Positions 11,289-64,000 of a stretch of DNA of 64,000 nt are shown in pieces; position 1 is the first letter of the stretch; each line of letters starts with the position of its first letter. Below the pieces are notes generated by a model. It saw only the letters and a program-made list of their open reading frames with translations, did not search any database and was not told the origin of the DNA. The translations under genes were made by a program, and so were the position numbers. The stretch is from Xanthobacteraceae bacterium (GTDB lineage Bacteria > Pseudomonadota > Alphaproteobacteria > Rhizobiales > Xanthobacteraceae): NCBI GenBank assembly GCA_029239875.1, contig JARBUD010000018.1, forward strand, positions 1-64,000. Direction: 5' to 3'.

Positions 11289-11298
11289 GCGACGCGAG

Positions 11299-15909: not shown

Positions 15910-15921
15910 CCTCACTCGCAC

Positions 15922-16013: not shown

Positions 16014-16026
16014 GTCCTTCTTCTCT

Positions 16027-35060: not shown

Positions 35061-35104
35061 CGAGCGGCCGGGCTCTGGCGGGTGTTTCCTCCCTAGACTT
35101 GGAC

Positions 35105-35132: not shown

Positions 35133-35139
35133 GTGCGCG

Positions 35140-48500: not shown

Positions 48501-50420
48501 CAGCAGGTCGAGCGCGATCTCGCCGCCGCCGCGCCGGCCGAGCACCATGTCGTGGACATAGACCGGCGGCGTGCCCTCGGGCTGCACGGTGAAGGTGCGC
48601 TCGTCCACCACGACGAAGCCCATGGCTTCCAGCATCGGCACCCGCTCGGAGAGCAGGCGCGGCACCTCGTAGCTCAGCACCTTCAGTGCGATGCGCTCGC
48701 GGCCCGGCACGGACGGCGCGCGGGCGAAGTCGGCGGCGACGGGATGCTGGGCGCTCAGCCGCTCGATGAGCCTGAGGTCGGCCAGCGCCTCCTCAGGCGT
48801 GTAGCTGCTCTGGTAGCCGACGGGGAAGGCCCCGCCGTAACGCTTGGCCAGCGCCGTCGCCTGCGCCGGCGGGAAGACCAGGCCGAGCGCCGCGCCGAAG
48901 GCGTCGCCCCAGGTGCGGATGATGCCGGCGACGGCATCCTCGAGTTCGATGCGGCCGACCTCGCGCACCGGCGCGCCGGTCTGCTCGACAATGAAGTGGA
49001 CGCGGGTCAGCGGCCCTTCCACGAAGAGCGGCCGGAACGCCGCCACCTGCCCGCCGAAGCTCGTCGCCAGCAATTGGCCGATGCGCTCGCGCACCTCCGA
49101 GCCGTAGCGGTCGCGCGGCACGAAGACCAGCACCGAGACGAAGCGCTCGAAGCGCTCGCGCCAGGCGAGCACGCGCGCGCGCGGATGCTCGTCGAGCTGG
49201 AGGATCGCCATGGAGAACTGGAACAGCGTCGCCGGGTCGATCTGGAACAGGTCGTCGCGCGGGAACAGCTCCAGCACCTTCACCAGCGCGCGGCCGGAAT
49301 GGCTCTCCGGCACGAAGCCGGCGCGAGCCAGCACGCCGGCCACCTTGTGCCGCACCAGCGGGATGGAGCGGACGGATTCGGCATAGGCGGTGTTGGTGAA
49401 CAGGCCGGCGACGCAGAGCCCGCCGACGATGCGCCCTTCGGTGTCGTAGCGCTTGACCACCACCACGTCGATCCAGGCGCGCCGGTGGACATATGAGACG
49501 GTGCGCGACTTGACGACGATGAGTGGCGTCGGCTCGGCGAGCACCTCGCTGAGGTCCATACTCACCGCGCGCGGATCGCTGGCGCGGCGGAACAGGCGAA
49601 ACTCCTCGTCCGCCAGCACGCCGAGCGCGTCCTCCATGCGACGGTCGAAGGCGATCCGGCCGCCGGCGCCTTCGCGCGCGTCGTAGTTGCGGCTACCGAG
49701 GAAGGTGAAATTGCCGTCCAGCAGCCATTCGAGCAGGGCGACCGCCTCCTCGACCTCCTCGGCCGGCACCTTGGCGGGCGCGTTGGCGAGGTCCGCCAGC
49801 GCGCCGTGGACCTGTTCCATCATCGGCTTCCAGTCCGCCACCGCCCGGCGCACCTGCCCCAGCACCACGCCGATCTCCTCGGCCAGCGCGGCGCGCTGCG
49901 CCTCGTCCTCGATGCGCGGGATGTGGATCTGGATCAGGCTCTCCCGGCGGGCCCGCGCGCTGGCGGGCGTGTCAGTGGGCGTCAGCCCGTCGAGCGCGCC
50001 AGCCGCGTCGCGCTCGACGCCGAAGATGGGATGCACAACGAAGGACGCGGTCAGCCCGCGCGCATTGAGCGCCGCCATCACCGAATCGAGCAGGAACGGC
50101 ATGTCGTCGTTGACGATCTCGATCAGCGTGACCTTGCCGAGCCGCTCGCCCTCTCCGTCCGGCAGGCGCGGCAGTTCGACGCGGATGTCGGGCGCCCCCG
50201 GCCGGCGCGCGGCGAGATGCCCGTAGGCGCCCAGCGCCAGGCTGGCGAGCTCGTGCGCCGTGTAGAGCCGCACATCCTCCGCCACCGCCCGGCCGAACAG
50301 CCGGCTGGCGAACTGCGCCGGCACGCTGCCGTCGGTCGCCTGCAGGATCAGGTCGGCCTGCTCGACCAGCTGCCGCGCCGCGCGTTCGTCCTCGGTGGAG
50401 AGAAACCCTTCAACGCCCAT
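45564..50420 (-). CDS. gdhB: Large NAD-specific glutamate dehydrogenase (GdhB / GDH-180)
   Basis: A 1618-residue enzyme, the size expected for the 180-kDa NAD-glutamate dehydrogenase class. The N-terminal third contains ACT-like regulatory segments (KVTLIEIVNDDMPFLLDSV). The central catalytic domain has GLRWSDRPQDFRTEVLGLVK and VIVPVGAKGGFV with the substrate-binding lysines, and WFGGIGTYVRAS lies near the NAD domain. It deaminates glutamate to 2-oxoglutarate in amino-acid catabolism, often under allosteric control. It is a single gene on the minus strand. Confidence 0.95.
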   Translation of the reverse strand: MGVEGFLSTEDERAARQLVEQADLILQATDGSVPAQFASRLFGRAVAEDVRLYTAHELASLALGAYGHLAARRPGAPDIRVELPRLPDGEGERLGKVTLIEIVNDDMPFLLDSVMAALNARGLTASFVVHPIFGVERDAAGALDGLTPTDTPASARARRESLIQIHIPRIEDEAQRAALAEEIGVVLGQVRRAVADWKPMMEQVHGALADLANAPAKVPAEEVEEAVALLEWLLDGNFTFLGSRNYDAREGAGGRIAFDRRMEDALGVLADEEFRLFRRASDPRAVSMDLSEVLAEPTPLIVVKSRTVSYVHRRAWIDVVVVKRYDTEGRIVGGLCVAGLFTNTAYAESVRSIPLVRHKVAGVLARAGFVPESHSGRALVKVLELFPRDDLFQIDPATLFQFSMAILQLDEHPRARVLAWRERFERFVSVLVFVPRDRYGSEVRERIGQLLATSFGGQVAAFRPLFVEGPLTRVHFIVEQTGAPVREVGRIELEDAVAGIIRTWGDAFGAALGLVFPPAQATALAKRYGGAFPVGYQSSYTPEEALADLRLIERLSAQHPVAADFARAPSVPGRERIALKVLSYEVPRLLSERVPMLEAMGFVVVDERTFTVQPEGTPPVYVHDMVLGRRGGGEIALDLLEGRLHSTLMAVLRGTAESDGFNALALNARLGWRDIALLRTLARYLRQIGVPFSQDYLWATLNAHPAIVDRLVALFHARFDVDQPERREERQAAIREEIEAALAEVQSLDEDRILRRFANLIEAAVRTNFHQRGEDGGFRPTIAIKFLSHKVEGLPLPRPLFEIFVHSPRVEGIHLRFGRVARGGLRWSDRPQDFRTEVLGLVKAQQVKNAVIVPVGAKGGFVPAQLPSGPREAIQAEGVEAYKLFISSLLDVTDNIDGGAIVPPPQTVRHDEDDPYLVVAADKGTATFSDTANALSQARGFWLGDAFASGGSVGYDHKAMGITARGAWEAVRRHFREMDVDIRVTPFTVVGVGDMSGDVFGNGMMLENTIKLVAAFDHRDIFLDPNPDPLVSLAERQRLFALPRSSWQDYDKSLISAGGGVFPRTAKSIALSPAIREALGFDRSSASPAEVISAILRAPVDLLWFGGIGTYVRASNEADAQVGDRANDAIRIAGAEVRAKVIGEGANLGVTQRGRIEAARRGVRLNTDAIDNSAGVNTSDVEVNIKIALGPVVREGRLDAERRADLLASMTDEVAELVLGNNYLQTLALSLAERRNLDEAGFLQRLMQRLEARDLLDRAVEFLPSDAELNERRGRGEGLTRPELAVLLAYAKLTAHSDLLDTDVPDDPYLARELAAYFPPELRERFPEGIEQHRLRRDIIATRLSNAMINHGGPTFVARLADETGATVGAIAKAFAAVRDGFGLNGLNEEIDALDGVVPGAVQLDLYGVVQDMLLDRSVWFLRNVDLRSSLDELVAHYAAGIAPVETVLSGPVRELLPEEARSLHDARVAQWTQAGVPEGLARRIARLPAVENATDIVLIADRTKASISDVAVTFFAVGLLFRLDRIFGAARTLSVTDYYDRLALERALTAFEIAVRRLTAEVIEAHGPGVAGVTAWAEARGEVVERARTGVHEIAASGLSVSKLSVAASLIGDLVRG

Positions 50421-50570
50421 GATCGTCCTCCCGCTTGCCCGTCCGATTTCATGCGCCGCCGCTCATGGCGGCCGGTCGGGGCCTTTTCTGCATCCTCTAC
50501 CTTGCCGGCGGATGACAGCCCAGCATCATGTGGCAATACGGTTACACAAGGGCGCGCGTAAATCCCGCCT

Positions 50571-50584
50571 TTGACTTGGATCAA
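50571..50584. promoter_or_regulatory. FNR/FixK-type box upstream of ompW
   Basis: TTGACTTGGATCAA: a perfect TTGA, six bases, TCAA and one mismatch from TTGAT-N4-ATCAA. It lies 83 bases before the ompW ATG. OmpW is FNR-controlled in enterobacteria, which supports a real oxygen-responsive site. Confidence 0.65.
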
Positions 50585-50666
50585 GCGGCGCCTCCCCCTT
50601 CCGCCGCACGTTGCGATGCAGCAACCGGACGATGATCCGGGCTGGGGCAATAAGGGGTTTTGCACG

Positions 50667-51395
50667 ATGTCGACGCGCCGCACCGGTCTTTCCAACACGC
50701 AAGCCGGCTCTCTGAAGCTTTCGGTTCTCGCGCCCATGGCGGCGCTGCTCGCGCTGGCCTTGCCGGCCGCTCCCGCCATGGCCGCGGACGTCGCCACCGC
50801 GGCGGTGCCGGTCTACAAGGCACCGGTGGTCGAGTTGCCGAGCCCGTGGCAGATTCGCGTACGCGCCCTCGGCGTGATCACCGACGACAGCGGCTATGTG
50901 AGCCAGGTGCCGGGCTCCGGCCTCAGCTACTCGGATTCGATCGTCCCCGAGCTCGACATCACCTACTACTTCACCGAGAACTTCGCCGCCGAACTCATCC
51001 TCGGCGTCACCCCGCACGACATCGACGGCTCCGGCACCATCGCCAGCCTCAACAAGCTCGGCGACGTCTGGGCGCTGCCACCGACGCTGACCCTGCAGTA
51101 TCACTTCACCAATTTCGGCGCCTTCAAGCCCTACGTCGGCGCCGGCATCAACTATACCTTCTTCTTCGACCAGAACGCTTCCGCCGCGGATTCGCTCGAC
51201 GTGAAGGACACCTTCGGCTGGGCGCTGCAGGCCGGCTTCGACTACATGTTCGACCAGCACTGGGGCATCAACGTCGACGTCAAGAAGCTCTTCCTGGAGC
51301 CGGACTTCGACGCCGTCGTCGGCGGCGCGCCGGTCAGCGGCACGGCCAAGCTCAACCCGTGGCTCGTCGGCGTCGGCGTCACCTACCGGTTCTGA
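50667..51395 (+). CDS. ompW: OmpW-family outer-membrane protein
   Basis: A 242-residue protein with a long signal peptide (about 40 residues, LSVLAPMAALLALALPAAPAMAA). The eight-strand OmpW barrel pattern is visible: PWQIRVRALGVITDD, PELDITYYFTENFAAELILG, TLQYHFTNFGAFKPYVGAGINYTFFF, and a terminal LVGVGVTYRF with C-terminal Phe. OmpW barrels pass small hydrophobic molecules. The ATG at 50667 is preferred; the TTG at 50571 overlaps the FNR-type box. Confidence 0.92.
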   Translation: MSTRRTGLSNTQAGSLKLSVLAPMAALLALALPAAPAMAADVATAAVPVYKAPVVELPSPWQIRVRALGVITDDSGYVSQVPGSGLSYSDSIVPELDITYYFTENFAAELILGVTPHDIDGSGTIASLNKLGDVWALPPTLTLQYHFTNFGAFKPYVGAGINYTFFFDQNASAADSLDVKDTFGWALQAGFDYMFDQHWGINVDVKKLFLEPDFDAVVGGAPVSGTAKLNPWLVGVGVTYRF

Positions 51396-51415
51396 GCGAC
51401 TTCTCCATCCAGGAC

Positions 51416-51501
51416 GCCGTCATGGCCGGGCTTGTCCCGGCCATGTGTGTTCTGGGTCCCGTGGTGCCGGCGGCAAAGACATCGCCCCCGGGTCAAGCCC
51501 G
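51416..51501. repeat. Family II intergenic palindrome after ompW
   Basis: GTCATGGCCGGGCTTG with CCCGGCCATG form a first stem, and CCCGGGTCAAGCCCG closes the unit. It lies between the converging ompW and RidA-family genes. Confidence 0.65.
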
Positions 51502-51514
51502 TGCCTCGACAGCT

Positions 51515-51913
51515 TCAGGCGACGAGGGCCGTGGCGGCGATCTCGACGAGGAATTCCGGCTTCACCATGTCCAGCTTCACGCAGAACCGGGCCGGAAGGA
51601 TGTTGGGGAAATACTGCACGTAGACGGCGTTCATCCGGTCGTAATCGGCAAGATCGCGCAGGAAGATCTGGTTGAAGACGACGTCATCCATCGTGCCCCC
51701 GGCGGCTTCGATCACCTCCTTGATGCTGTCCAGCACGCGGCGGGTCTGTACCTCGACGTCGCCGATGCCGACGATGTGGCCGTCATAGGGATCGGTGGCG
51801 AGCATCCCCGCGACATAGATGTGGTTGCCGGCCCGGATCCCCCAATTGAGATGATGGGTGCCGGCCGAGGTGCGGCCGGGAAGCCAGCCATTGGGATTGA
51901 CCGCGATGTTCAT
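51515..51913 (-). CDS. RidA-family protein, arginine-containing type
   Basis: A 132-residue RidA/YjgF/RutC-family protein: TSAGTHHLNWGIRAGNHIYVAG, then DVEVQTRRVLDSIKEVIEAAG and FPNILPARFCVKLDMV. The Arg in PARF matches the catalytic Arg of imine/enamine-hydrolysing Rid proteins. RutC relatives act on unstable acrylate-type intermediates of pyrimidine ring opening. It is the last gene of a minus-strand run that begins with the LLM monooxygenase, supporting a role in the same route. Confidence 0.88.
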   Translation of the reverse strand: MNIAVNPNGWLPGRTSAGTHHLNWGIRAGNHIYVAGMLATDPYDGHIVGIGDVEVQTRRVLDSIKEVIEAAGGTMDDVVFNQIFLRDLADYDRMNAVYVQYFPNILPARFCVKLDMVKPEFLVEIAATALVA

Positions 51914-52000
51914 GATGGTTCTCCGATTGTGACGAGGACGATGGGCCGGCCGCGGCGGTCGCGACCGCCGGCAGCGGAAGGCGCCGGGTGGAAGTGCCGC

Positions 52001-52939
52001 CTAGCGGGCTCCCCGGATGAAGGGAACGCCGAGGTCGCCGGGCGCGGCGTCGCTGCGCCCCATGACGATCCAGGCGAGGAGGGCGAGCAGGAACGGGAAC
52101 ATGAGGAGCAGCGGCGCCGGCAGCGCCAGACCGATCGCCTGTCCCTGGTACTGCAGCGCATCGGCGCAGCCGAACAGCAGGGAGGCCAGCACGATCCAGA
52201 GCGGCTTCCACCGGCCGAAGATCACCACCGCAACGGCGAGATAGCCGCGTCCGGCGGTAACGTTGTCGGTGAAGACGCCGCCCGAGGCGACCAGGGTGAG
52301 GTAGGCGCCGGCGATGCCCGCCAGGAGCCCGCAGAAGACCATGGCGGCGAAGCGCACGGCGGTGACCGGGATGCCGGCGGCGTCGGCCGCACTGGCGCCC
52401 TCGCCGACCGCGCGCAGCACCAGGCCGGGGCGGCTATGGCGGATCACCGCCCACAGGACGATGGCGAGCACGATCCCGCCATAGAGCAGCGGGCTCTGGC
52501 CGAAGAAGGCCCGCCCCACCACCGGCACCTCCCACAGGCCGGGAATGCGCCAGCTGGCGAGGGCGCGCAGCGAGGGCGCCGTGAAGGACGGCGACAGCAG
52601 CAGTTCCCGGCCGAGCGAGGTGCCGCCGAGCGCCAGTATGTTGAAGCCGATGCCCGCCACCACGCTGTCGGCGCGCAGCACCGCGACCGCCACGGCAAGG
52701 ACGATGGCGGCCCCCGCGCCGGCCGCCACGCCGCAGAGGACGCCGAGCACCGGCTCGCCGGTCCATTGCAGGCCAAGCACGGCACCGAACGCGCCGAACA
52801 GCATCAGCCCTTCGAGGCCGATATTGAGCACTCCCCCCCGCTCGCAGACGAGCTCGCCGAGCGAGGCCAGCAGGATCGGCGCCGACAGCCGCACCGCCGA
52901 GGCGAGAAGGAGGCCGAACGTCACCGCGTCGAAGACCAT
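52001..52939 (-). CDS. BMP-family ABC importer, membrane permease 2
   Basis: A 312-residue integral membrane protein of the BPD_transp_2 family with about eight to nine helices. SAPILLASLGELVCERGGVLNIGLEG is the nucleoside-type permease signature, and AAGIPVTAVRF is the cytosolic coupling helix. It pairs with permease 1, whose gene lies immediately upstream; the two overlap by 19 bases. BMP/Nup-type systems import nucleosides, purines or related compounds. The start at 52939 matches the family N-terminus. Confidence 0.92.
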   Translation of the reverse strand: MVFDAVTFGLLLASAVRLSAPILLASLGELVCERGGVLNIGLEGLMLFGAFGAVLGLQWTGEPVLGVLCGVAAGAGAAIVLAVAVAVLRADSVVAGIGFNILALGGTSLGRELLLSPSFTAPSLRALASWRIPGLWEVPVVGRAFFGQSPLLYGGIVLAIVLWAVIRHSRPGLVLRAVGEGASAADAAGIPVTAVRFAAMVFCGLLAGIAGAYLTLVASGGVFTDNVTAGRGYLAVAVVIFGRWKPLWIVLASLLFGCADALQYQGQAIGLALPAPLLLMFPFLLALLAWIVMGRSDAAPGDLGVPFIRGAR

Positions 52940-54024
52940 AGCGGGCGTCCTTTCAGCAATCTGTAGCCGTTGAGGCAGGCGAGCGCGATGATCGGCAGGC
53001 TGGCCATGACCTGCGCCAGCGCCGCCGGCACGCTGAGGGCGCTCTGCAGGGCCAGCGTGCCGCTGTCGATGGCGCCGAAATAGAGGGCGACGACGACCGA
53101 GCCGAGCGGATCGAGGCCGCCCAGGAGGGCGATGGCGAGCCCGTCGAAGCCGATATCGGTACTGAAGCCGTCGATCAGCCGGTACTGCACGCCCAGCACC
53201 TCGACCGCGCCACCGATACCGGCGAGGGCGCCCGACAGCAGCATGGAGGAGAGCACCAGCCGGCGCATGGGCAGCTGGAGCAGCCGCGCGGTACCGGGGG
53301 CGAGGCCGGCGGCCTGCAGCCGGGCGCCATAGGCCGTGTGGTAGAGCAGCGCCCACACCATGGCAGCGGCGGCAAGTGCGAGCAGCACGCCCGCATGCAG
53401 CCGGCTGCCGGGCAGGATCACCGGCAGCATGGCGCCATCGGGCACCTTGGCGGACATGTTGAAGTCCGACCCCGGCGGCTGCAGCGGCCCCTGCACGAGA
53501 TACTTCACCAGATAGATGGCGATGAAGTTCATCATCAGCGTGACGATGATCTCGTTGGCGCCGCGCCAGAGCTTCAGCACGGCGGGGATCAGCCCCCAGA
53601 GCCCCCCGAGCAGCGCCGCGCTGAGCACCGACAGCGGCAGCAGCAGCGGGCCGAGCTCGGCCGGCAGGAAGGTCGACGGCAGGATCGCACCGACCGCGCC
53701 GAGCTGGAGCTGGCCTTCGCCACCGAGATTGAAGAAGCCGCAGCGCAGCGCCACCAGGGCGGCGAGCGCAGTAAGCAGCCGCGGGGCCATGAAGACCAGC
53801 GTGTCCGCCACCGCGCGGGGCGAGCCCAGGGCGCCGTCCAGCATGACCGCCAGCGCCTCGACCGGATCCCGGCCGAGCAACGCGAGAAGCCCGAGGCTGA
53901 AGCCGATGCTGAGCGCGAAGGCGGCCAGCGTCGCGAGCGCCGGCGAGCGCGCGATCCGCGCCACCATGGCACGCAGACCGGGAGAGGCCATGCCGGCCTC
54001 CTGTGGGGTCGAGAGGCTCTTCAT
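52921..54024 (-). CDS. BMP-family ABC importer, membrane permease 1
   Basis: A 367-residue BPD_transp_2 permease. ALVALRCGFFNLGGEGQLQLGA is the family signature, GANEIIVTLMMNFIA follows, and about eight helices span the chain. Its ATG overlaps the stop of the ATPase gene. Together with permease 2, the ATPase and the BMP lipoprotein-type binding protein it makes a complete importer, in the order typical of nucleoside-type systems. Confidence 0.92.
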   Translation of the reverse strand: MKSLSTPQEAGMASPGLRAMVARIARSPALATLAAFALSIGFSLGLLALLGRDPVEALAVMLDGALGSPRAVADTLVFMAPRLLTALAALVALRCGFFNLGGEGQLQLGAVGAILPSTFLPAELGPLLLPLSVLSAALLGGLWGLIPAVLKLWRGANEIIVTLMMNFIAIYLVKYLVQGPLQPPGSDFNMSAKVPDGAMLPVILPGSRLHAGVLLALAAAAMVWALLYHTAYGARLQAAGLAPGTARLLQLPMRRLVLSSMLLSGALAGIGGAVEVLGVQYRLIDGFSTDIGFDGLAIALLGGLDPLGSVVVALYFGAIDSGTLALQSALSVPAALAQVMASLPIIALACLNGYRLLKGRPLWSSTR

Positions 54025-55544
54025 GCCGGCACGGCCTCGCGCTCGTCGCCGGTCATCAGGACGCCGAGCCGCTCGCGGTCGACCGGCGCCGACAGCTGGC
54101 CGACGATCCGCCCGCCATAGATAACCACGATGCGGTCGCTGATCCTCAGCAGTTCGTCGAGATGGCTGGAGATGACCAGCACGGCGCGCCCCTCCCCGGC
54201 CGCCGCGCGCAGCCGGCGGAGCACCTCCTCGCTGGCCGCGAAGTCGAGGCCGCGGGTCGGCTGGTGTACCACTACCATCAGGGAATCCCCGGCCAGAGCC
54301 CGGGCCAGTACGATCTTCTGCTGGTTGCCGCCCGACAGCGTGCGCGGGGTCTGCTCGACCGAGTGCGTGCGCACGTCGGCCTCGGCGCACATCGACCGGG
54401 CGTGGCTGGCGATGTCCGCATGCCGCAGCCGGCCCGCCGGCGTAGAGAAGGCCGGCTCGCCGATCCGGTCGAGCAGCAGGTTCAGCGAGACCGGCAGATC
54501 GAGCACCAGGCCTTCCCGGTGGCGATCTTCCGGCACCAGCCCCGGAGCGGCCACGCGCTCGGGCGCCGACGGATCAGCTGCGCCTGACATCCACGTCACC
54601 GTGCCACGCTCGGGCGACACGAGGCCGGCAACGACGTCGAACAGCTCGCGCTGGCCGTTGCCCTCAACGCCGGCGACGCCGACCACTTCGCCGCGCCGTA
54701 GCTCCAGCGACACGTCGCGCAGGCCGGCCGAGGAGGGACGCGGGGCGAGGCTGACCTTCTCCAATCGGGCGACGACGTCTCCATCGGCCCGTCCCTGCCC
54801 GGCCGCGAGCGGCTCCAGCTCCAGGCTGCGGCCGACGATGTCGCGCACCAGATCGGCGCGGCTGCGACCGGCGACGGGGCCGGAGCTCACGAGGCGCCCG
54901 TGGCGGATGACGGTGACGCGGTCGGCATGGTCGAGGACTTCGGCGAGATGATGCGTCACCACGACGATCCCCCGGCCATCGGCCGCCAGCCGGCGCAGCA
55001 CCGCGTAGAACCCGGCGATCTCCTCCGGGCCGAGGATGGTGGTCGGCTCGTCGAACAGGATGAGCGCGGCTTCGTTGACCAGCGCCTTCACGATCTCCAC
55101 GCGCTGCTGCAGGGCGAGCGGCAACTGCGCGACGGGTATGTCGATCGGGATCGGCAGGCCGAAACTTTCGGCCAGCCGCCCGATGTCGGCGTCTCTGGAA
55201 AGGCGACGGCGCGCCGCCGGCGTGGCGGCGAGGCGCAGATTCTCGCCGGCGGTGAAGCTCGGCACCAGCTTGAAGTGCTGATGCACCATGCCGATGCCGT
55301 TAGCGATGGCGTCGGACGGGGAACGGTGGATCACCTGCCGCCCGTCGAGCAGCAGCCCGCCCTCGTCCGGCTGATGCAGGCCGAACACGATGTTGAGCAT
55401 CGTGCTCTTGCCCGCGCCGTTCTCGCCGAGCACCGCATGCAGCTCGCCGCGGCGGAACGACATCGAGACATTCTCCAGCACGGGATGGCCGGGCACGAAG
55501 CTCTTCGAGACACCGGTCAGCCGCAGCAACGCATCCGGATCCAT
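54021..55544 (-). CDS. BMP-family ABC importer, duplicated ATPase subunit
   Basis: A 507-residue protein with two fused ATPase halves, as in RbsA/NupO-type importers. The first half has Walker A GENGAGKST at 40-48 and Walker B LILFDEPT. The second half has a degenerate VAGVEGNGQREL P-loop and an intact RTLSGGNQQKIVLARAL signature. It lies two bases after the BMP binding-protein gene, within one operon. Confidence 0.94.
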   Translation of the reverse strand: MDPDALLRLTGVSKSFVPGHPVLENVSMSFRRGELHAVLGENGAGKSTMLNIVFGLHQPDEGGLLLDGRQVIHRSPSDAIANGIGMVHQHFKLVPSFTAGENLRLAATPAARRRLSRDADIGRLAESFGLPIPIDIPVAQLPLALQQRVEIVKALVNEAALILFDEPTTILGPEEIAGFYAVLRRLAADGRGIVVVTHHLAEVLDHADRVTVIRHGRLVSSGPVAGRSRADLVRDIVGRSLELEPLAAGQGRADGDVVARLEKVSLAPRPSSAGLRDVSLELRRGEVVGVAGVEGNGQRELFDVVAGLVSPERGTVTWMSGAADPSAPERVAAPGLVPEDRHREGLVLDLPVSLNLLLDRIGEPAFSTPAGRLRHADIASHARSMCAEADVRTHSVEQTPRTLSGGNQQKIVLARALAGDSLMVVVHQPTRGLDFAASEEVLRRLRAAAGEGRAVLVISSHLDELLRISDRIVVIYGGRIVGQLSAPVDRERLGVLMTGDEREAVPA

Positions 55545-55546
55545 GC

Positions 55547-56539
55547 TCAGTTCTCGAGCTTGATCTCGCCCTTGGCGAGCTTCCCGATCACGCCGAAGAC
55601 CTGTGTCTCCACTTCCGGAGCCACGTGCTGGAACGGCCGCGCCAGCGTCCAGCCGTCATTGGCGAGGTCCATCTGGAAGATCTGGCCGCCGAGCGTGCCG
55701 GCCTTCATCATCTGGCCCATCTGGTCATAGGCCTTGTCGAAGTTCAGCACCGTGCTGGTGATGATCGCGCCTGGAAACTGCTTGCTCTGGTCCATGTAGG
55801 CCCCGATCGTCAGCTTCTTCTCCTCTTCCGCCGCCTGCTGGATGCCGGCGTCGGCGAGATCGGCGGAAGGCAGCAGCACGTCGGCGCCGCGCAGGATGAC
55901 GCCGGTGGCGATCTCCTTCGCCTTGGCGATGTCGGTAAAGGAACCGGTGAACACCTTGTCGACCTGGATGTCCGGGACCACCGCCTTGGCGCCGCGGGTG
56001 GTGAACTCGTGCGTGCGCTTGGCGGAGGGGATTTCCTCGCCGGAGATGATGGCGATGTGCTTGTTGGCGCTCGACGCGGCGGCGAGGGCGCCGGTCACGT
56101 AGCCGTATTCGTCCCAGTTCACCGACCAGGCAGTGTAGTTCTTCAGCCCGCCGGTGCTGGCCGCGTAGCTGTAGAGCACGAATTGCGTCTGGGGGAATTC
56201 CTTGGCGACCTCCAGTATGGCTGCCGAGTAGCCGGAGCTCTGGCAGATGATCATCTTGACGCCGCGCGCCGCAAGCTGCCGCAGGATCGCCGGCGCCTTC
56301 TCATAGGTGGCGTGCTCGACATAGGAGGATTTGAAGCCGTAGGTCTTCGCCATCTTCTGGAAGGCGGCGAAGCCGGGCGGGTCCCAATTGCCTTGGGTGA
56401 CGGCCCCGGTGAACAGGCCGGCCACCTCGATGGCGTTCTCCGCCCGCGCGGAGAGCGGCGACGGGCCGGGCGACAGAAGCGCGCCGGCGACGAGACCAAG
56501 AACGATGCGACGCGATAGGAAGCGGAACGGCTGATCCAT
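55547..56539 (-). CDS. BMP-family periplasmic substrate-binding protein
   Basis: A 330-residue BMP-type binding protein. The signal has a Tat-like SRRIVLG followed by a hydrophobic LVAGALLSP and cleavage near SARA. The mature part carries AGLFTGAVTQGNWDPPGFAAFQKM and a later LLPSADLADAGIQQAAEEE. BMP proteins bind nucleosides, purines and other N-compounds, while no residue set here fixes the ligand. It heads the importer genes, right after the second RidA-type gene. Confidence 0.9.
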   Translation of the reverse strand: MDQPFRFLSRRIVLGLVAGALLSPGPSPLSARAENAIEVAGLFTGAVTQGNWDPPGFAAFQKMAKTYGFKSSYVEHATYEKAPAILRQLAARGVKMIICQSSGYSAAILEVAKEFPQTQFVLYSYAASTGGLKNYTAWSVNWDEYGYVTGALAAASSANKHIAIISGEEIPSAKRTHEFTTRGAKAVVPDIQVDKVFTGSFTDIAKAKEIATGVILRGADVLLPSADLADAGIQQAAEEEKKLTIGAYMDQSKQFPGAIITSTVLNFDKAYDQMGQMMKAGTLGGQIFQMDLANDGWTLARPFQHVAPEVETQVFGVIGKLAKGEIKLEN

Positions 56540-56597
56540 CGTGTTTCCCTGGTGGCTGGAAGGTGTGAGCGCCGGGTGTTCGCCTCGGCTTGTCGGT

Positions 56598-56984
56598 TCA
56601 GTCGGCGACCATCACAACGAGGTCGATCTCGATGAGCAGGCGCGGGTCGGCCAGCGCGGCGACCTCGACCAGTGTGCTGGCCGGCAGGTCGCAGCCGGCG
56701 AAGAAGGCGAGCCGGCCACGGTGGATGGCGGCGGCGAAGCGGGTGTCGGTGACATAGGTGACGGTCTTGACGATGTCGTCCGGCACCGCTCCGAGCCCTT
56801 CGAGGAGCAGCCCGATATTCCGGTAAACCTGCGCCACCTGGGCATCGATGTCGCCGACGCCGACGACCTCGCCGTTCTCGTCCCAGGCCACCTGCCCGGT
56901 CGGGAACACCGGGCGCCCCGGCCGGATCTTGGCGTGGTTGTAATAGGCCTGCGGCTTCAGCCCGCGCGGATTGATCGCCGCCAT
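56598..56984 (-). CDS. RidA-family protein lacking the catalytic arginine
   Basis: A 128-residue Rid-family protein: PTGQVAWDENGEVVGVGDID, QVAQVYRNIGLLLEGLG and VTYVTDTRF are typical. The conserved LPARS region reads LPASTLVEV, so the catalytic Arg is replaced by Ser. It therefore falls outside the RidA-type imine deaminases and nearer the Rid4-Rid7 groups, whose chemistry is unknown. The ATG at 56984 is preferred over 57032. It directly follows the LLM monooxygenase gene. Confidence 0.85.
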   Translation of the reverse strand: MAAINPRGLKPQAYYNHAKIRPGRPVFPTGQVAWDENGEVVGVGDIDAQVAQVYRNIGLLLEGLGAVPDDIVKTVTYVTDTRFAAAIHRGRLAFFAGCDLPASTLVEVAALADPRLLIEIDLVVMVAD

Positions 56985-57010
56985 GCGTCGCCCCCCCGGT
57001 CGCTGCCGTG

Positions 57011-58111
57011 CTAATGCGCATAGGCGTTGCACATGACGCCCCCGTCATGCAGACCGTCCACCACGGCGGTGCCGATGGTGCGAAGGTCGTCGATGAAGTC
57101 GGGAACGATGACGGTGATGCCGTCGAGCTCCGCGCCGTGGATGATGTCGGCGAGCTTGCGGGCGATGGTCTCCGGCGAGCCGACGATCGCCGCCGGGCTC
57201 ATGGAGTTGCGCTGCTCGCCCTGGGCGATGAACCGATTGGCCATCGTGTTCTGCTTCAGGCTCGGATCGGAGGCGTATTCGCGGGTCTGGTTGTCGAGCG
57301 CGACCGTGTCCACACCCGCATTGTAGTAGGCGACCCGCTCCTGGGCCTCCTTGTCGGTAGCACCGGGAACGATGGTGAACAGGCCATAGGTCTTGAAGTC
57401 GGTGCGGCCGAGCTCCGCGGCGACCTCCTTGGCGCGGCGCCCGGTCTTCACGAAGTCGTCGCGGTTGCTGCCGAGCAGGAAGCTCCCGGTGCAGTGCTGC
57501 GCGGTGAAGCGGAAGCCGGTGTCGGAGGCGCCGGCGCAGATGACCGGCGGGGCGTGCTCCGGCTTGGGGTTGGACATGCAGTCCTCCAACCGGAAGAACT
57601 CGCCGGCGTGATCGACCCGCTCCTCGCTCCACAGGCGCCGGATGACGGTGAGCCACTCCTCGGCCAGCCGGTAGCGCCCCCCATGGTCGAGGTCGCGCCA
57701 CAGCCCCATCTGTCCCTGATCCACCGGATTGGAGCCGGCGACCAGGTTGAGGCCGAAGCGGCCCTTGGAGATCTGGTCGATCACCGCGGCCATCTTCGCG
57801 ACCACGGCCGGATGGAAGATCATGGTGTGGACAGTGCCCCACACGCCGATGCGGCTGGTCGCCTCGGCGAGGCCGGCCATGGTGGTCATCGATTCGAGGG
57901 TGAAATCCCAATGGCGGCTCGGGCCGCCATAACCCCTCCACTTCGCCATGCTGAGCGCGAAGTCGAAGCCGAGCTCCTCCGCCAGCACCGCCACCTGCTT
58001 GTTGTAGTCGTAGGTGGCCGGCAGCTGCGGGCTGGTGGTCGACGTAATCCAGCCGCCATTGCCTACGGGAAGGAACACGCCGAGTTCAACATGACGCTCG
58101 GAAACCTGCAT
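57011..58111 (-). CDS. LLM-class flavin monooxygenase, RutA-like
   Basis: A 366-residue bacterial-luciferase-fold enzyme. GVFLPVGNGGWITST, FDFALSMAKWRGYGG, WDFTLESMTTMAGLA and GRFGLNLVAGSN follow RutA, the uracil-ring-opening flavin monooxygenase, block by block. RutA uses a flavin-N5-peroxide and FMNH2 supplied by RutF. The RutF-like reductase gene here lies 2 kb away on the plus strand. The region around 58131-58146, 20 bases upstream, holds a perfect inverted repeat. An amide-containing N-heterocycle is the likely substrate; uracil itself is not proven. Confidence 0.88.
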   Translation of the reverse strand: MQVSERHVELGVFLPVGNGGWITSTTSPQLPATYDYNKQVAVLAEELGFDFALSMAKWRGYGGPSRHWDFTLESMTTMAGLAEATSRIGVWGTVHTMIFHPAVVAKMAAVIDQISKGRFGLNLVAGSNPVDQGQMGLWRDLDHGGRYRLAEEWLTVIRRLWSEERVDHAGEFFRLEDCMSNPKPEHAPPVICAGASDTGFRFTAQHCTGSFLLGSNRDDFVKTGRRAKEVAAELGRTDFKTYGLFTIVPGATDKEAQERVAYYNAGVDTVALDNQTREYASDPSLKQNTMANRFIAQGEQRNSMSPAAIVGSPETIARKLADIIHGAELDGITVIVPDFIDDLRTIGTAVVDGLHDGGVMCNAYAH

Positions 58112-58130
58112 TTTACTTAATTCCTCAAGT

Positions 58131-58146
58131 TTCTCGCAAACGAGAA
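58131..58146. promoter_or_regulatory. Inverted repeat upstream of the LLM monooxygenase gene
   Basis: TTCTCG, CAAA, CGAGAA: perfect six-base arms 20 bases before the monooxygenase start. It could be a regulator site, or a hairpin affecting the start region. Confidence 0.5.
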
Positions 58147-58210
58147 CTGGAAACTGATGGTCACGCTACCAGCCATCACGAGGCGGCGATAACAGAGATG
58201 TTGCGATGTC

Positions 58211-58231
58211 GTGTTGCGCAAAGGGCAACAC
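58211..58231. promoter_or_regulatory. Dyad between the LysR and monooxygenase genes
   Basis: GTGTTGC (58211-58217) and GCAACAC (58225-58231) with a seven-base spacer, 38 bases after the LysR stop on the minus strand. No U-run follows, so a protein-binding site or an attenuator-like hairpin is more likely than a terminator. Confidence 0.45.
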
Positions 58232-58268
58232 CGAGATGCGTCAAGGGACCGCCGCGGCCATGCGCCGG

Positions 58269-59177
58269 TCATGCGGCGGCGCGACCGGCGCTGGGGAATT
58301 CCTTGACCAGCATCTTCAGGAATTCATGCGCCGCGTAGCTCAGCCGCCGGTCGCGATGGACGCAGATGGCCGAGGTGGCCGCGGCGAACTCTTCTTCGTC
58401 GATGGGGATCGCCTTCAGCGTGCCCTCGTCGATCTCCTTGCTGGCGGCAAGGGCGGGCCCGACGGTAATGGCGCGGCCGGTGATCGCCATAGCGCGCGTC
58501 AGTTCAAGATTATTGGCCGAGACGATGGTATTGGCCGACAGATTGCGGCGGGAGACCGCCTTGTCGAAGAGTTGTCGCAATCCGAAGCTGGGCACCGGGA
58601 GCGCGATCTGCTGCGTGCAGATCTCGGAAAGCGACAAGCTCTTGCGGTCGACGAAGGGATGATCGCTCGCCACCAGGCACATGACCGGCTCGGTATGGCT
58701 GGCGACGATCTCTATATTCGGCCGCGGCCTGGCATTGAAGACGATGCCGATATCCGCCTCGTCCTTGATCATCGCCTCGATGATGCGATCGGTCGATTCG
58801 GTGAAGACGGAGAAACGGATGGCCGGATAGACGTCGTTGAACTTGTTGATCGCACGGGGAAGGAAGCTGAAGATAAGGCCCTCGATCGCCCACAGCTTGA
58901 CCTCGCCCTGCCGCAATCCTTTCAGCGTGCGAATGGAATCCTGCACGCGCTCCAGATCGCGGAACATGGTGCGCGTATAACGCTCCAGCAGCAGCCCGGC
59001 GGGAGTCAATTGTATTCCGGTATTGGAACGCTCCAGCAGCAGCGTGCCGAGTTGATGTTCGAGCAGAGCCAGCTGCCGGCTGATCGCCGAGGGCGCCACA
59101 TGCAGGCGATCGGCGGCACGGCGGATCGACCGCGTCTCGGCAACCTCGTTGAAGTAGCGGTATGTGTTGAAGTTCAT
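58269..59177 (-). CDS. LysR-family transcriptional regulator
   Basis: A 302-residue LysR protein. The winged HTH is at residues about 3-60 (YRYFNEVAETRSIRRAADRL, then VAPSAISRQLALLE), followed by a co-inducer domain (EGLIFSFLPRAINKFNDVYP). It is encoded between the two arms of the Rut-like cluster: co-directional with the monooxygenase arm and divergent from the hydrolase/reductase arm. It is the likely regulator of both. Confidence 0.93.
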   Translation of the reverse strand: MNFNTYRYFNEVAETRSIRRAADRLHVAPSAISRQLALLEHQLGTLLLERSNTGIQLTPAGLLLERYTRTMFRDLERVQDSIRTLKGLRQGEVKLWAIEGLIFSFLPRAINKFNDVYPAIRFSVFTESTDRIIEAMIKDEADIGIVFNARPRPNIEIVASHTEPVMCLVASDHPFVDRKSLSLSEICTQQIALPVPSFGLRQLFDKAVSRRNLSANTIVSANNLELTRAMAITGRAITVGPALAASKEIDEGTLKAIPIDEEEFAAATSAICVHRDRRLSYAAHEFLKMLVKEFPSAGRAAA

Positions 59178-59550
59178 GGCTCACGCTTCCGGCCGGATGG
59201 TCGTCACGTGAAGCAAGCCATGTGCCACCGGCGCCGGATGGCGTTCATCATTAGGCAACACGGCCAACACCATTCTGGTATACGCGCCGCCGTCCGGACT
59301 TGTTAGGTTGCGTCGTCTCGACACAAAGCAATCCTTCGACCGGCCGAGACATTTTCATGAATTTCCGAACTCACCGAAGAATAGATAGCGCAATCCCTAC
59401 GTAATATCGGCCGACCCTCAAGCCCGGTTCGCGCCGCCAGCTGCCTCGTCCGCGACACCCGCCACTCGCTGCCTCCCCGGCGTCCCACACGCCGAGGCAG
59501 GCCGACTGCGCCCCGTCTGCGGGCATGGCAGCTCAGTCAGGAGTTCACCG
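59178..59550. other. Divergent gap between LysR gene and RutD-like gene
   Basis: A 373-base non-coding stretch that should hold the promoters of both arms of the Rut-like cluster. TTCATGAA at 59354-59361 is a short palindrome; no unambiguous T-N11-A LysR box or promoter was found. An AGGAG ribosome-binding site lies just before 59551. Confidence 0.5.
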
Positions 59551-60372
59551 ATGCCCATCGCATCGCTCGACGATATCGATCTGTTCCACGAGATCAGCGG
59601 GGAAGGTCCCCTCCTGGTCCTGGTCACCGGGCTGGCCGGCGTGGCGTCCTATTGGCGGCCGAACATCGAGGCCCTCGCGCAGCATTTCACCGTGCTGCGC
59701 TACGACCAGCGCGGCACCGGGCGCAGCAGCCGCCCCGAGGGCACCTATTCGGTCGAACTGCTCACCGACGATCTCGTCCGGCTGATGCGCCATCTCGGGC
59801 TGTCGCACGCCCGCATCCTCGGCCATTCGACCGGCGGCGCGATCGGCCAGGTTCTGGCGGCGCGGCATCCCGAGCTCGTCGAGCGCCTCGTGCTCTATGC
59901 GAGCTGGGCGAGCCTCTGCCCGCAGATGCGGATGTGCATGGAGATCAGGCAGCAGCTGCTCGCCGCGGCCGGCCCGGCGGCCTATCACCGGGCCTCGCCG
60001 CTCTTCCTCTATCCGCCGCGCTTCGTGTGCGAATCCTGGCCGCGGATCGCCGCCGAGCTCGACGCCGGCGTCGCGCAGTCGACGACGCCGGCAATCTTGG
60101 CGGCGCGGGTCCGCGCTGTCATGGACTTCGACGGCCGGCCCTATCTCCCCTCGATACACGTGCCGACGCTGGTCCTCGTCGCCGACGACGACATATTGAC
60201 GCCGCGCCTCGCCGCCGACGAACTGCAGGCGGGGATCGCCCATGCCCGGCTCCAGACCATGACCTATGGCGGGCACGCCGTATCCTATTGCGAACCCGAG
60301 GCGTTTCACGCCGCCGTCCTGCCGTTCCTGCGGCAGGAGGCGTCGGGTGCCGCCGAGCGCCGCTCGGCCTGA
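59551..60372 (+). CDS. Alpha/beta hydrolase, RutD-like
   Basis: A 273-residue alpha/beta hydrolase. The nucleophile elbow GHSTGG carries S93, the acid is in LVADDDILTP (about D213/D214), and H242 lies in YGGHAVSY. YDQRGTGRSS near residue 51, PLFLYP near 150 and the YGGHA end parallel RutD, the hydrolase of the Rut pathway that cleaves aminoacrylate or carbamate-type intermediates. It opens the plus-strand arm. The RutF-like reductase gene starts ten bases after its stop. Confidence 0.87.
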   Translation: MPIASLDDIDLFHEISGEGPLLVLVTGLAGVASYWRPNIEALAQHFTVLRYDQRGTGRSSRPEGTYSVELLTDDLVRLMRHLGLSHARILGHSTGGAIGQVLAARHPELVERLVLYASWASLCPQMRMCMEIRQQLLAAAGPAAYHRASPLFLYPPRFVCESWPRIAAELDAGVAQSTTPAILAARVRAVMDFDGRPYLPSIHVPTLVLVADDDILTPRLAADELQAGIAHARLQTMTYGGHAVSYCEPEAFHAAVLPFLRQEASGAAERRSA

Positions 60373-60382
60373 GGGTAACGCC

Positions 60383-60904
60383 GTGCATCCCCTTCCCTCC
60401 TCCCCGGCGGCGATGGACGCCTCGGTCGACGGCGCCCTGTTCCGCGCCGGCATGCGGCGGCTCGCATCAAGCGTCTGCCTGATCACCGCGCATCACGCCG
60501 ATCGCCGCCATGGCCTCGTAGCGACGTCGATCTCCTCGCTCGCCGCGGAGCCGCCGAGCCTGATCGCCTGCGTCCACCGGTCTGCATCCGCACATGGCCC
60601 GATCCGCCAGGCCGGCGCCTTCTGCGTCAACCTGCTCGGCACGCGGCACGAGGAGCTGGCGCTGCTGTTCAGCGATCCGGACCGCCGCGACCGACGCTTC
60701 GAGACGGCAGGCTGGGCCACGCTGGCGACCGGCGCCCCGGTGCTGGCCGATGCCTTGGCCGCCTTCGACTGCCGGCTCGAACGAGTGGTGGAGCACGCGA
60801 CCCACGCCATCCTGATCGGCACGGTGCTCGATATCCGCATCGATGATTTCGGCGATCCGCTGATCCACGCCGACCGGCGCTTCACCCGCCTCGCCGCACA
60901 CTGA
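60383..60904 (+). CDS. Flavin reductase, RutF-like
   Basis: A 173-residue flavin reductase-domain protein. GTG 60383 follows GAGGG by eight bases and is preferred over ATG 60413. FRAGMRRLASSVCLITAHHA, GLVATSISSLAAEPPSLIACV and AFCVNLLGTRHEELALLFS are the family blocks. It should supply reduced FMN to the RutA-like monooxygenase. The two genes are on opposite strands, whereas in rut operons they are together. Confidence 0.9.
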   Translation: MHPLPSSPAAMDASVDGALFRAGMRRLASSVCLITAHHADRRHGLVATSISSLAAEPPSLIACVHRSASAHGPIRQAGAFCVNLLGTRHEELALLFSDPDRRDRRFETAGWATLATGAPVLADALAAFDCRLERVVEHATHAILIGTVLDIRIDDFGDPLIHADRRFTRLAAH

Positions 60905-60964
60905 CGTGGCAGCCTCCCGCCTCGCTCATCGCCCTGTCCTAGCCAACCGATCCGAGTTCCTGCC

Positions 60965-61519
60965 ATGACGCATCCGACCATCCGCAAATTCGTCATCCAG
61001 ATCGAAGAGACGCTCAGCGCCGCCGGGCATACGGTCGAACCGCCGGTCCGCAAGGCGACCGTCGCGGCCGTCATCGCCAACCCTGTCGCGGGCCGCTACG
61101 AAGAAGACCTGACGCCGCTCTACGATATCGGACGGCAGATCGCGGCGACGCTGACCGAGCGGGCCATGCTGGCGCTCGGCGCCGAGGCCGATGACATCGA
61201 GGCCTATGGCAAGGCCGCGATCGTCGGCCTCGACGGCGAGCTCGAACACGCCGCCGCGCTGCTGCACCCGGAGTTTGGCGCGCCGGTACGCTCGCGGACC
61301 GGCGGCAGCGACATCATTCCCTCGACCAAGAAGATCGGTGCGGCCGGCGCTGCGATCACCCTGCCGCTGACCGGCAAGACTTCCATCTGGAGCTTCGATC
61401 ATATGGACGCCACCGAGATCAGCATCGCCGACGCGCCTCGTCCGGACGAGGTGGTGGTGATCCTTGCCCTCGCGACGGGCGGTCGCGCCCTGCACCGCAT
61501 CGCGCCGCGACCGGCCTAG
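60965..61519 (+). CDS. AA_synth family protein (PF06684, DUF1185)
   Basis: A 184-residue protein of the former DUF1185 family: RKATVAAVIANPVAGRYEED, DDIEAYGKAAIVGLDGELEH and RSRTGGSDIIPSTKKIGAAG. Known structures of this family show a chorismate-mutase-like fold, and no reaction is proven. It is the third gene of the plus-strand arm, in the place where a rut operon would need an amidohydrolase such as RutB. A hydrolytic or lyase-like role on the ring-opened product is inferred. Confidence 0.85.
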   Translation: MTHPTIRKFVIQIEETLSAAGHTVEPPVRKATVAAVIANPVAGRYEEDLTPLYDIGRQIAATLTERAMLALGAEADDIEAYGKAAIVGLDGELEHAAALLHPEFGAPVRSRTGGSDIIPSTKKIGAAGAAITLPLTGKTSIWSFDHMDATEISIADAPRPDEVVVILALATGGRALHRIAPRPA

Positions 61520-61566
61520 AGCCGCAGCACAGGCGGCACGTCGCGACGGCGAACCACGGGATGCGC

Positions 61567-63018
61567 CTAGAACCAGTCGTCGAGCAATCCGGCAACGTCA
61601 TCGCACTGTTCGATGGCGAGCATGGCTGAGATCAGACCGGCGGTGTCGCCTCGACCGCTCAGATTTCTGGCGGCCTTGTCAAAAACCACATTATCGTCGA
61701 CCGGTCTGCGCTCGCCGCCCAACGGCGCCTCGACATGGCTTGCGAACCGTCGACCATCCGTCGTGACGATCGACGCAGCGGCCGAAGGCCGGCGCATCTT
61801 GCCGTTCATTAGGCGATCCATGACCGGGTCGACGGAAACCTCCACCTTGTCGGCCACCTCGCGCAGCGCCGCATCGGTGAAGGCGTCCGCCGCGAACCAG
61901 TCCGGCCCGGGCGAGCGACCCGTCGCGATCGCACCGATGGCATAGGGCAGGCTGAACTGCGCATCGATCGGATTCACCGGCCTCCGATCCATCAGCTTCT
62001 CGGCGATGACTCCGAAGGTGCTGATCCGGATCTCGGCGATCGCCGCCGGCGTCAGGCCCGCGTCGACATAAGCGTTCTCGAACGCCTCCAGCGCCGGGGC
62101 AAGCCAGCGGCAGGCCGGATAGGTCTTGAAGCTGCCCTTGCCCGCCAGCCAGAGCGTTCCGAGATCGTCGGTGACGAGCGACGCATCGAACCTGTCCGAG
62201 CCGATCATCCGCCAGTAGCCCTGCGGCCCGTCGAGCAGGTCCGCGCTGCCGACGAATCCCTCCTCGCTCATGATCGCCGCCTGAACGCCGGCCTGCGCCG
62301 CCGGTGCCACGCCGTCCTTGAGCGAGATGATGGGCCGGGTTTGCCAGTTGTACTTGTGCAGGCTCGGCAGCGGGCTCAGCGCGCCGGCGAGGCCGATCGC
62401 GTTCCGTATGCCCGTGGCGTCGCCGCCGGACAGCTTGGCGAAGACCAGCGCCGCGCCGATCGCCTGATGCTGGCCGACGCCATAGACCTGCCTGAAGCGC
62501 GCGGCCGTGGGCTGCATCGCAAGTATGAGGCGGTTGTTGATCTCATAAGCGGCGGCGAGCGCGGCGAGTAATTCGCGCCCCGAAATCGGCCGATGCCCCA
62601 AGGCGGCAAGAGCGGCCGGAACGATGCTGGAGCTGGGATGCCCCATGCCCTTGCCGTTCACCTCGAAGCCATCGTCATAGTCGAGGGCGTTGGCGATGAC
62701 GCTGTTGGCTAAGGCCGCCGCGATGGGCGTGAAGCGCTCCTCCGCCCCGAAGACGCGGCAGACTCCGCCCTGTCCCATCCGCGAAGCGACGGCACGGGCA
62801 CTGCGCGAAATGTCGAGATCGCGGCCGGCGACAGCGCAGCCGATGGTGTCGAGCAGATGCAGCTTGAGGCGATGGAGAACGGCATCCGCCACTTTCTCGT
62901 AGCGCAACTCGGCGGCGAAGGTCGCGACCCTGCCGGTCACATCGTCGCTGCCGACCGCCATGTCGGCAAACGCGTCGGGGGAGGCATCGCGCGACGCCAC
63001 GTCTCTCGTCATGGTCAT
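61567..63018 (-). CDS. MmgE/PrpD family protein
   Basis: A 483-residue protein of the MmgE/PrpD fold, which includes 2-methylcitrate dehydratase, cis-aconitate decarboxylase and iminodisuccinate epimerase. LHLLDTIGCAVAGRD, NALDYDDGFEVNGKGMGHPSSSIVPAA and KTYPACRWLAPALEA are the usual blocks. The reaction cannot be set from sequence. It follows the amino-acid permease gene on the minus strand with a 29-base gap and converges on the AA_synth gene, so either cluster could use it. Confidence 0.9.
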   Translation of the reverse strand: MTMTRDVASRDASPDAFADMAVGSDDVTGRVATFAAELRYEKVADAVLHRLKLHLLDTIGCAVAGRDLDISRSARAVASRMGQGGVCRVFGAEERFTPIAAALANSVIANALDYDDGFEVNGKGMGHPSSSIVPAALAALGHRPISGRELLAALAAAYEINNRLILAMQPTAARFRQVYGVGQHQAIGAALVFAKLSGGDATGIRNAIGLAGALSPLPSLHKYNWQTRPIISLKDGVAPAAQAGVQAAIMSEEGFVGSADLLDGPQGYWRMIGSDRFDASLVTDDLGTLWLAGKGSFKTYPACRWLAPALEAFENAYVDAGLTPAAIAEIRISTFGVIAEKLMDRRPVNPIDAQFSLPYAIGAIATGRSPGPDWFAADAFTDAALREVADKVEVSVDPVMDRLMNGKMRRPSAAASIVTTDGRRFASHVEAPLGGERRPVDDNVVFDKAARNLSGRGDTAGLISAMLAIEQCDDVAGLLDDWF

Positions 63019-63047
63019 GTTGAGCTTCGAAGCAGTGACAGCGCGGT

Positions 63048-63722: not shown

Positions 63723-64000
63723 GCCGGACCTCCCGCATTTTCCTGCCGCTGGCTGGCGAAGAACTGCCGGGCACGTGGGTTCTCGGATTGCGTCATCACG
63801 TAATCGGGCGCGCCGCGCTCGACGATCTGGCCGCCTTCCAGAAGAACCACCTCCTCGCACGCGTTTCGCGCGAAGCTCATCTCGTGGGTGACGACCACCA
63901 TGGTGGTGCCGCTCTTCGCCAGATCGAGCATGACCTGGAGCACTTCGCCGACGAGTTCCGGATCGAGGGCGGACGTCGGCTCGTCGAACAGCATGATCTT
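63719..64000 (-). CDS. Polar amino-acid ABC importer ATPase (C-terminal part)
   Basis: The C-terminal 93 residues of a GlnQ/HisP-type ATPase. Walker B and D-loop (MLFDEPTSALDPE) and the H-loop (VVVTHEMSFARN) are visible, ending QRQENAGGPA. The Walker A and signature motifs lie beyond the right edge. It is coupled to the permease gene by a four-base overlap. Confidence 0.92.
   Translation of the reverse strand, partial: KIMLFDEPTSALDPELVGEVLQVMLDLAKSGTTMVVVTHEMSFARNACEEVVLLEGGQIVERGAPDYVMTQSENPRARQFFASQRQENAGGPA

Follow-up and report, generated by a model that had tools for sequence, protein, structure and literature searches.

The window analysed here, a 64,000-nucleotide stretch of Xanthobacteraceae DNA, carries between positions 51515 and 61519 a gene cluster built around a flavin-dependent monooxygenase of the luciferase-like (LLM) type. 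We favour the view that this is a catabolic cluster applying RutA chemistry to a pyrimidinone other than uracil, probably the deaminated pyrimidine of thiamine; the form attacked would most likely be 2-methyl-5-(hydroxymethyl or aminomethyl)pyrimidin-4-one. At about even chances we place a more specific proposal, namely that the cluster and its relatives carry out a previously unrecognised oxidative mineralisation of the vitamin B1 pyrimidine, running from import of N-formyl-4-amino-5-aminomethyl-2-methylpyrimidine (FAMP) to ring opening by a RutA-family enzyme, with the window holding a short form that takes up a ring already in the 4-oxo state. The sequence shows the gene content, the grouping of the relatives, the change in the enzyme's pocket, the operon linkage and a conserved dyad; enzyme activity is predicted only. 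An earlier sequence-only reading had named the genes and their arrangement as two arms around a LysR gene, and all are present where it placed them.

A RutA-family monooxygenase with a changed pocket

The window monooxygenase scores 285.6 bits against the RutA model TIGR03612, and five other members of its group score 277–303 bits. The curated cut-off is 498.3 bits, a score exceeded by nothing encoded in the window genome; E. coli RutA scores 725.8. Indeed, all four Rut-like proteins of the window (the LLM, RutD-, RutF- and RutC-like proteins) lie below the curated NCBIfam Rut cut-offs. Other models fit the enzyme less well (SfnG 155.8 bits, alkanesulfonate monooxygenase 98.6 bits), and the best solved structures are those of RutA (5wan, 6sgl and 6sgg; E about 1e-72). 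The protein therefore does not side with the sulfone or alkane monooxygenases, an outcome that the sequence-only reading had named as one that would refute it, yet it stands outside the canonical RutA group, sharing 37–40% identity with the canonical RutA loci.

Relatives were collected by a genome scan with a six-member alignment, which gave 574 matching stretches, of which 530 are relatives; the scan rested on two peptide patterns, so that members can be missed. The best 80 were kept, 31 with at least 48% identity and 49 with 37–40%, the majority of the latter with RutB. The group as we define it comprises 34 loci (the window, L050, L051, L053 and 30 of L056–L086). L049 and L052 were dropped as duplicates of L056 and L072, and L085, which shows 48% identity and has a weak RutB match at 29%, was placed outside. 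The group is rare, these 34 loci being spread over Pseudomonadota, Actinomycetota and Bacillota. Among 72,556 plasmid records there are 126 LLM matches, five of them at 59–82% identity and the next at 44%. A close copy occurs in one other of 61 genomes (29 of them congeners), at 96% identity in the congener G020, whose contig coordinates are those of L073; the next best match is at 42%. The cluster is thus patchy and perhaps mobile.

The alignment holds 32 group rows, since the LLM match of Pantoea rodasii (L084) and Erwinia sp. S63 (L086) lies in separate pieces; there the gene may be disrupted or the sequence in error. The excerpted text of PMC10005588 places the O2 site of RutA at Thr105 and Asn134 and has Trp139 bordering the si-side cavity. 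In the alignment, which includes E. coli RutA from L149, the O2-site pair is kept as Thr and Asn in 32/32 group rows (Thr93 and Asn122 in the window), whereas the Trp139 position is Ser in all 32 (Ser127 in the window) as against Trp in 53 of 54 canonical rows. This is one of 22 columns with a nearly fixed difference between group and canonical rows. Glu292 varies in both and is uninformative. On these alignments the window enzyme is a member of the RutA family distinct from RutA itself, with what appears to be a remodelled pocket. In a tree of 64 of the 107 different rows, a separate branch (97/87) holds the canonical rows, and starred sets of 2, 9 and 24 rows include the window.

Two further sets of sequences were seen alongside. 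A separate RutA-like group (L039–L042 and L054; 40–45% identity to the window) has Ser or Ala at the Trp139 position, and other mid-distance rows have Gly. Three actinobacterial loci (L078, L076 and L082) hold a second, more distant LLM in the same locus, 43–49% identical to that of the window and forming its own starred set.

Neighbouring genes were counted, using profiles derived from these same loci, at the 34 group loci and 50 canonical loci, within flanks of at most about 10–12 kb (L066, L073, L074 and L078 being short contigs) rather than across whole genomes. RutB is found at 0/34 group loci versus 44/50 canonical ones, where a few matches are weak (31–32% identity at L128, L133 and L135), and RutG at 0/34 versus 30/50. 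Within positions 47011–63999 of the window, tblastn and profile searches gave no homologue of RutB, RutE, RutG or RutR; the described lack of RutB and RutG is thus borne out, and RutE is missing there as well. RutD-like genes (29/34 versus 39/50) and RutF-like genes (25/34 versus 33/50) occur on both sides. The group is instead marked by a BMP-family binding protein (23/34 versus 2/50), an aldo/keto reductase (19/34 versus 0/50) and a LysR homologue (27/34 versus 6/50); TetR-type matches, of the kind expected under RutR control, are weak and confined to 3/34 group loci. Rid homologues were detected at 33/34 loci with the profile of the LLM-adjoining Rid and at 32/34 with the RutC-like profile, but these profiles cross-match and show only that a Rid protein is present.

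Could this be a diverged uracil or thymine pathway, with the RutB and RutG functions supplied from elsewhere? Four window proteins have their best NCBIfam match in RutA, RutD, RutF and RutC respectively, the O2-site residues are kept, and a RutE-type gene occurs at 4/34 group loci (15/50 canonical). Nevertheless we hold it to be improbable, given the finding of RutB and RutG at none of the group loci, the change of Trp139 to Ser in 32/32 rows together with 21 further fixed column differences, and the scores of the six members tested, far under the RutA cut-off. What the sequence-only reading called a Rut-like N-heterocycle pathway is supported. Its suggestion of a substrate other than uracil fares well in that it is now possible to name a likely one, while that this is not uracil remains something we infer.

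Thiamine-pyrimidine genes beside the related clusters

The evidence pointing to thiamine comes from relatives that we call the long form. Relatives in Rhizobium, Pararhizobium and Acidisoma have genes for YlmB, ThiXYZ, TenA and an aminohydrolase on the flanks of the cluster. All of these are also present at a Paracoccaceae plasmid locus (L051). In Sinirhodobacter (L077), the flank takes in ThiXYZ and the beginning of the aminohydrolase gene, and TenA has a position that would fit just beyond it, presumably on the same contig. In Paenibacillus (L083), the LLM gene itself is part of a one-strand operon whose genes are no more than 37 bp apart. Across the group, the aminohydrolase is found at 12/34 loci (the L082 copy only 47% identical) versus 2/50 canonical loci (30% identity), TenA at 9/34, all nine with the aminohydrolase, versus 0/50, ArgE/YlmB at 9/34 (one weak) versus 1/50, and ThiY-like proteins at 15/34 (several weak) versus 5/50. 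Moreover, 3 of the 72,556 plasmid records contain the aminohydrolase (E up to 1e-80), and all 3 carry the LLM.

The individual proteins agree with these labels. YlmB-type deformylases score 722–739 bits in four loci tested (cut-off 412), the best solved match of the L049 ThiY is the FAMP-binding protein 3ix1, and the L049 TenA keeps a Cys, which we take to be catalytic, as do the two solved TenA-family proteins compared. Both hydroxymethylpyrimidine (HMP) and its amino analogue bear a 4-amino group. RutA cleaves uracil between N3 and C4 and needs an intact amide, cytosine not being turned over (PMC7662398, in the part seen), so an aminohydrolase would be required before a RutA-type enzyme could act on such a ring. 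This requirement would explain why the aminohydrolase accompanies the monooxygenase.

The pathway we propose would begin, in this subset of relatives, with a feeder arm: ThiXYZ-type import of FAMP, YlmB-type deformylation, and the successive action of TenA and the aminohydrolase to give a 4-oxo amide. In the window the BMP importer would bring the ring in. The RutF-like enzyme would, from its family, supply reduced flavin mononucleotide (FMNH2), and the RutA-like enzyme, by analogy with RutA, would cleave the N3–C4 amide. The RutD-like hydrolase would then release an acetamidine/enamine product for deamination by the Rid proteins, a role assigned because RutC is a 3-aminoacrylate deaminase (PMC8113886, abstract). 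Predicted products are ammonia, acetate and a C4 aldehyde acid, which the aldo/keto reductase would reduce in many relatives; the scheme is more conjectural in its later steps and in what becomes of the acetamidine.

Salvage roles are known for TenA, YlmB and ThiXYZ (PMC5627462, as far as excerpted), and the thiamine genes might serve vitamin salvage only, being chance neighbours of an unrelated LLM gene. We rate this improbable. In Paenibacillus, the LLM gene lies inside the operon, between TenA and Rid, and the same genome has a second TenA gene preceded, 152 bp upstream, by a thiamine pyrophosphate (TPP) riboswitch; the association recurs in three phyla; and an aminohydrolase would presumably spoil the 4-amino ring for salvage. 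TPP riboswitches were found at none of 12 group loci (L049, L050, L051, L056, L057, L058, L061, L074, L076, L077, L079 and L083), and over the cut-off elsewhere in 6/6 genomes scanned whole (L056, L058, L076, L077, L079 and L083). None was seen near the TenA genes of either the window genome or G020, where flanks of only about 1.5 kb make the result uninformative either way. Among the open-access literature matches listed, no paper ties a RutA-family enzyme to the thiamine pyrimidine, most subscription papers being outside that scope; the portion seen of the main text of Niehaus 2015 (PMC4433059) mentions neither RutA nor thiamin.

The short form in the window

Several observations weigh against the thiamine pyrimidine as the substrate. 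The window cluster has no feeder arm, holding a BMP importer and no aminohydrolase. No close aminohydrolase is encoded in the window genome (best homologue 39%) or in ten further short-form genomes (best 35%, E up to 1e-40), while two long-form control genomes searched with these ten matched at 100% and 79%. The window genome also lacks a YlmB over the cut-off (best 185 of 412 bits), and its three TenA genes lie outside the cluster. Feeder genes accompany only about a third of the group loci, three members (L053, L080 and L081) have a Rieske oxygenase in place of the aminohydrolase, and RutE-type genes are present at the 4/34 loci mentioned above. The tree adds to this: the aminohydrolase label requires 6 changes over 29 rows (L066, L073 and L078 excluded from such counts), the group in the outline used here does not form a single clade, since it encloses L055 (38% identity, on a very long branch) at a cost of 2 changes, and the node with L082 has support of 89/62. 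Lastly, we know of no activity for any group member. It may be that the short form uses another 4-pyrimidinone.

This last thought can be put more broadly: the group would open 4-pyrimidinones generally, the window's short form acting on another one, for example of plant origin, and the thiamine arm would be one of several feeders. The eleven genomes without a close aminohydrolase speak for it, as do the Rieske oxygenase and reductase found instead at three beta-proteobacterial loci, and several host names suggest plants or bark beetles, which we assume to reflect the ecology of those hosts. We regard this as possible, though distinctly the weaker explanation. The window LLM is nested in the 9-row starred set with the long-form Rhizobium, Pararhizobium and Acidisoma, is about 82% identical to long-form members (Rhizobium and others), and shares with them both its pocket residues and the dyad described below, all of which points to a substrate identical or very similar to theirs. 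The window substrate is thus likely to be the same as or close to that of the long form, if less surely than for the long form itself. Under the thiamine proposal, the want of a close aminohydrolase in the window genome and the ten others means that the importer should deliver a ring already bearing the amide.

At the three loci with the Rieske oxygenase (Cupriavidus and Variovorax), a VanB-type reductase also adjoins the LLM gene and the aminohydrolase was not found; a formaldehyde dehydrogenase match is present at L053 and L081 and absent at L080. These Rieske genes might act as a feeder that demethylates a methoxy- or N-methyl-pyrimidine.

Gene layout, neighbours and known systems

Positions of the genes and of the candidate operators are collected in the table, together with the Paenibacillus operon. 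The gene for the LLM-adjoining Rid protein overlaps the LLM gene by 22 bp.

Table. Features of the window cluster and, below them, of the Paenibacillus operon at L083 (positions within that locus)
Feature	Position	Strand	Best model or remark
Rid protein, RutC-like	51515..51913	-	TIGR03610 123 bits, cut-off 169
ABC importer permease 2	52001..52939	-	PF02653 113 bits
ABC importer permease 1	52921..54024	-	PF02653 130 bits
ABC importer ATPase, double ABC	54021..55544	-	PF00005, two stretches; nearest NCBIfam NF047930, below cut-off
BMP-family substrate-binding protein	55547..56539	-	PF02608 122.6 bits
Rid protein adjoining LLM, predicted enamine deaminase	56598..57032	-	PF01042 74 bits
LLM monooxygenase of the RutA family, flavin-dependent (366 aa), predicted to open the ring	57011..58111	-	TIGR03612 285.6 bits
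GTTGC-N7-GCAAC dyad, candidate LysR operator	58213..58229	.	between LysR and LLM
LysR-family regulator	58269..59177	-	LysR-type models
Weaker dyad copy, 2 mismatches	59243..59259	.	between RutD-like and LysR
RutD-like alpha/beta hydrolase	59551..60372	+	TIGR03611 216 bits, cut-off 238.5
RutF-like flavin reductase	about 60413..60904	+	PF01613 123 bits; TIGR03615 129.5, cut-off 254.75
AA_synth protein, adjacent, membership doubtful	60965..61519	+	PF06684 220.7 bits
L083 YlmB	7936-9279		
L083 TenA	9245-9976		
L083 LLM	9983-11104		
L083 Rid	11142-11546		
L083 SsuE-type FMN reductase	11574-12122		
L083 ABC ATPase			
L083 permease			
L083 NMT1/THI5 binding protein			
L083 aminohydrolase	14775-16094		

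The arms are linked by layout and by the dyad. Between LysR and LLM, an exact GTTGC-N7-GCAAC is found at 9/9 divergent-layout loci scanned, the window included (7 once near-copies are merged; L064 was left out of the scan). The interval between the RutD-like gene and LysR has an exact copy in 3 of the nine and a copy with 2 mismatches in the other 6, among them the window, where the weaker copy is weak on its own (0.18 chance matches expected in the region). In a comparison of 22 loci, from which L077 was dropped for want of a LysR match, the exact dyad lies between LysR and the next gene at 11, one locus having no such region, and the RutD-like gene and LLM share a strand at 12. Since the pattern itself is not rare across the window (with one mismatch, 2 expected and 1 found), the evidence rests on its conserved place. 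By gene order and motif conservation the two arms belong together, as the sequence-only reading had it.

The same reading had counted the AA_synth gene, which starts 60 bp downstream of the RutF-like gene, as part of the system. Here the data disagree: it is found at 1/34 group loci, the window itself, and at 0/50 canonical ones, and judged by this distribution it is outside the conserved system. A role as a stand-in for RutB was rejected on the same count and because its plasmid homologues (380/380 records) are all below 60% identity and none occurs in G020. According to the part seen of PMC2954203, AA_synth has a Bacillus chorismate mutase-like fold. Seven loci with homologues in five other genomes show other contexts, including tandem pairs (L152/L156, L153/L157 and L155) and ABC ATPases (L151); weak BMP-type matches (28–30%, L152 and L156) and a weak alpha/beta hydrolase match (L154) faintly recall parts of the window cluster, so that a link is conceivable. 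Downstream, at 61567–63018 and beyond, lie an MmgE/PrpD protein, an amino-acid-type ATP-binding cassette importer and then a LysR gene, probably a separate unit; AA_synth may belong either to this side or to the cluster. An open reading frame resembling an isochorismatase-type hydrolase by eye lies outside the window, about 6 kb past AA_synth (L136 7828–8661, contig 67828–68661). Far from the cluster, positions 35065–35139 match the suhB/mmgR small RNA family barely above the gathering score.

Genes for ribB or ribA/ribBA adjoin some relatives, and RibBA matches occur at several canonical Psychrobacter loci too; they may supply flavin. Riboflavin or lumichrome catabolism was considered as the function and rejected as the leading interpretation, RutA being a far better match than riboflavin lyase.

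If the thiamine proposal is correct, some bacteria destroy the thiamine pyrimidine, which is scarce, rather than recycling it, which bears on the exchange of vitamin B1 in communities. RutA-type ring opening would be extended beyond uracil and thymine, with the change of Trp139 to Ser as a diagnostic feature of the pocket, and a function would be available for proteins now annotated as RutA or LLM oxidoreductase, such as rutA_5 of L051.

Among known systems, the nearest is the Rut pathway of E. coli (RutABCDEFG), with which the window shares an LLM with the RutA O2-site residues, a flavin reductase, Rid proteins and a RutD-type hydrolase; unlike it, the window has a LysR gene, a BMP importer and Ser for Trp139, and is without RutB, RutE, RutG and RutR. 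Parts of FAMP salvage (ThiXYZ, YlmB and TenA) adjoin the cluster or are embedded in it in some relatives, where, in contrast to salvage, they are joined by the aminohydrolase and LLM and no TPP riboswitch was found at the loci scanned; they are absent from the window cluster. The window's BMP protein has 4p98 as its nearest solved chain, followed by the atrazine periplasmic binding protein 6pi5, which we take to be AtzT, although at E 1e-22 the likeness is distant; for this protein and the ATPase, the best NCBIfam models are named 'B6 ABC transporter', with scores far below cut-off. Riboflavin lyase 5w48, presumably RcaE of vitamin catabolism, is likewise an LLM-family enzyme, but a far weaker match to the window LLM than RutA (E 5e-15). 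The cluster is best seen as working like the Rut pathway without being a Rut member by the tests made, and so as a novel variation on the oxidative opening of pyrimidine rings, the thiamine pyrimidine being the leading candidate substrate.

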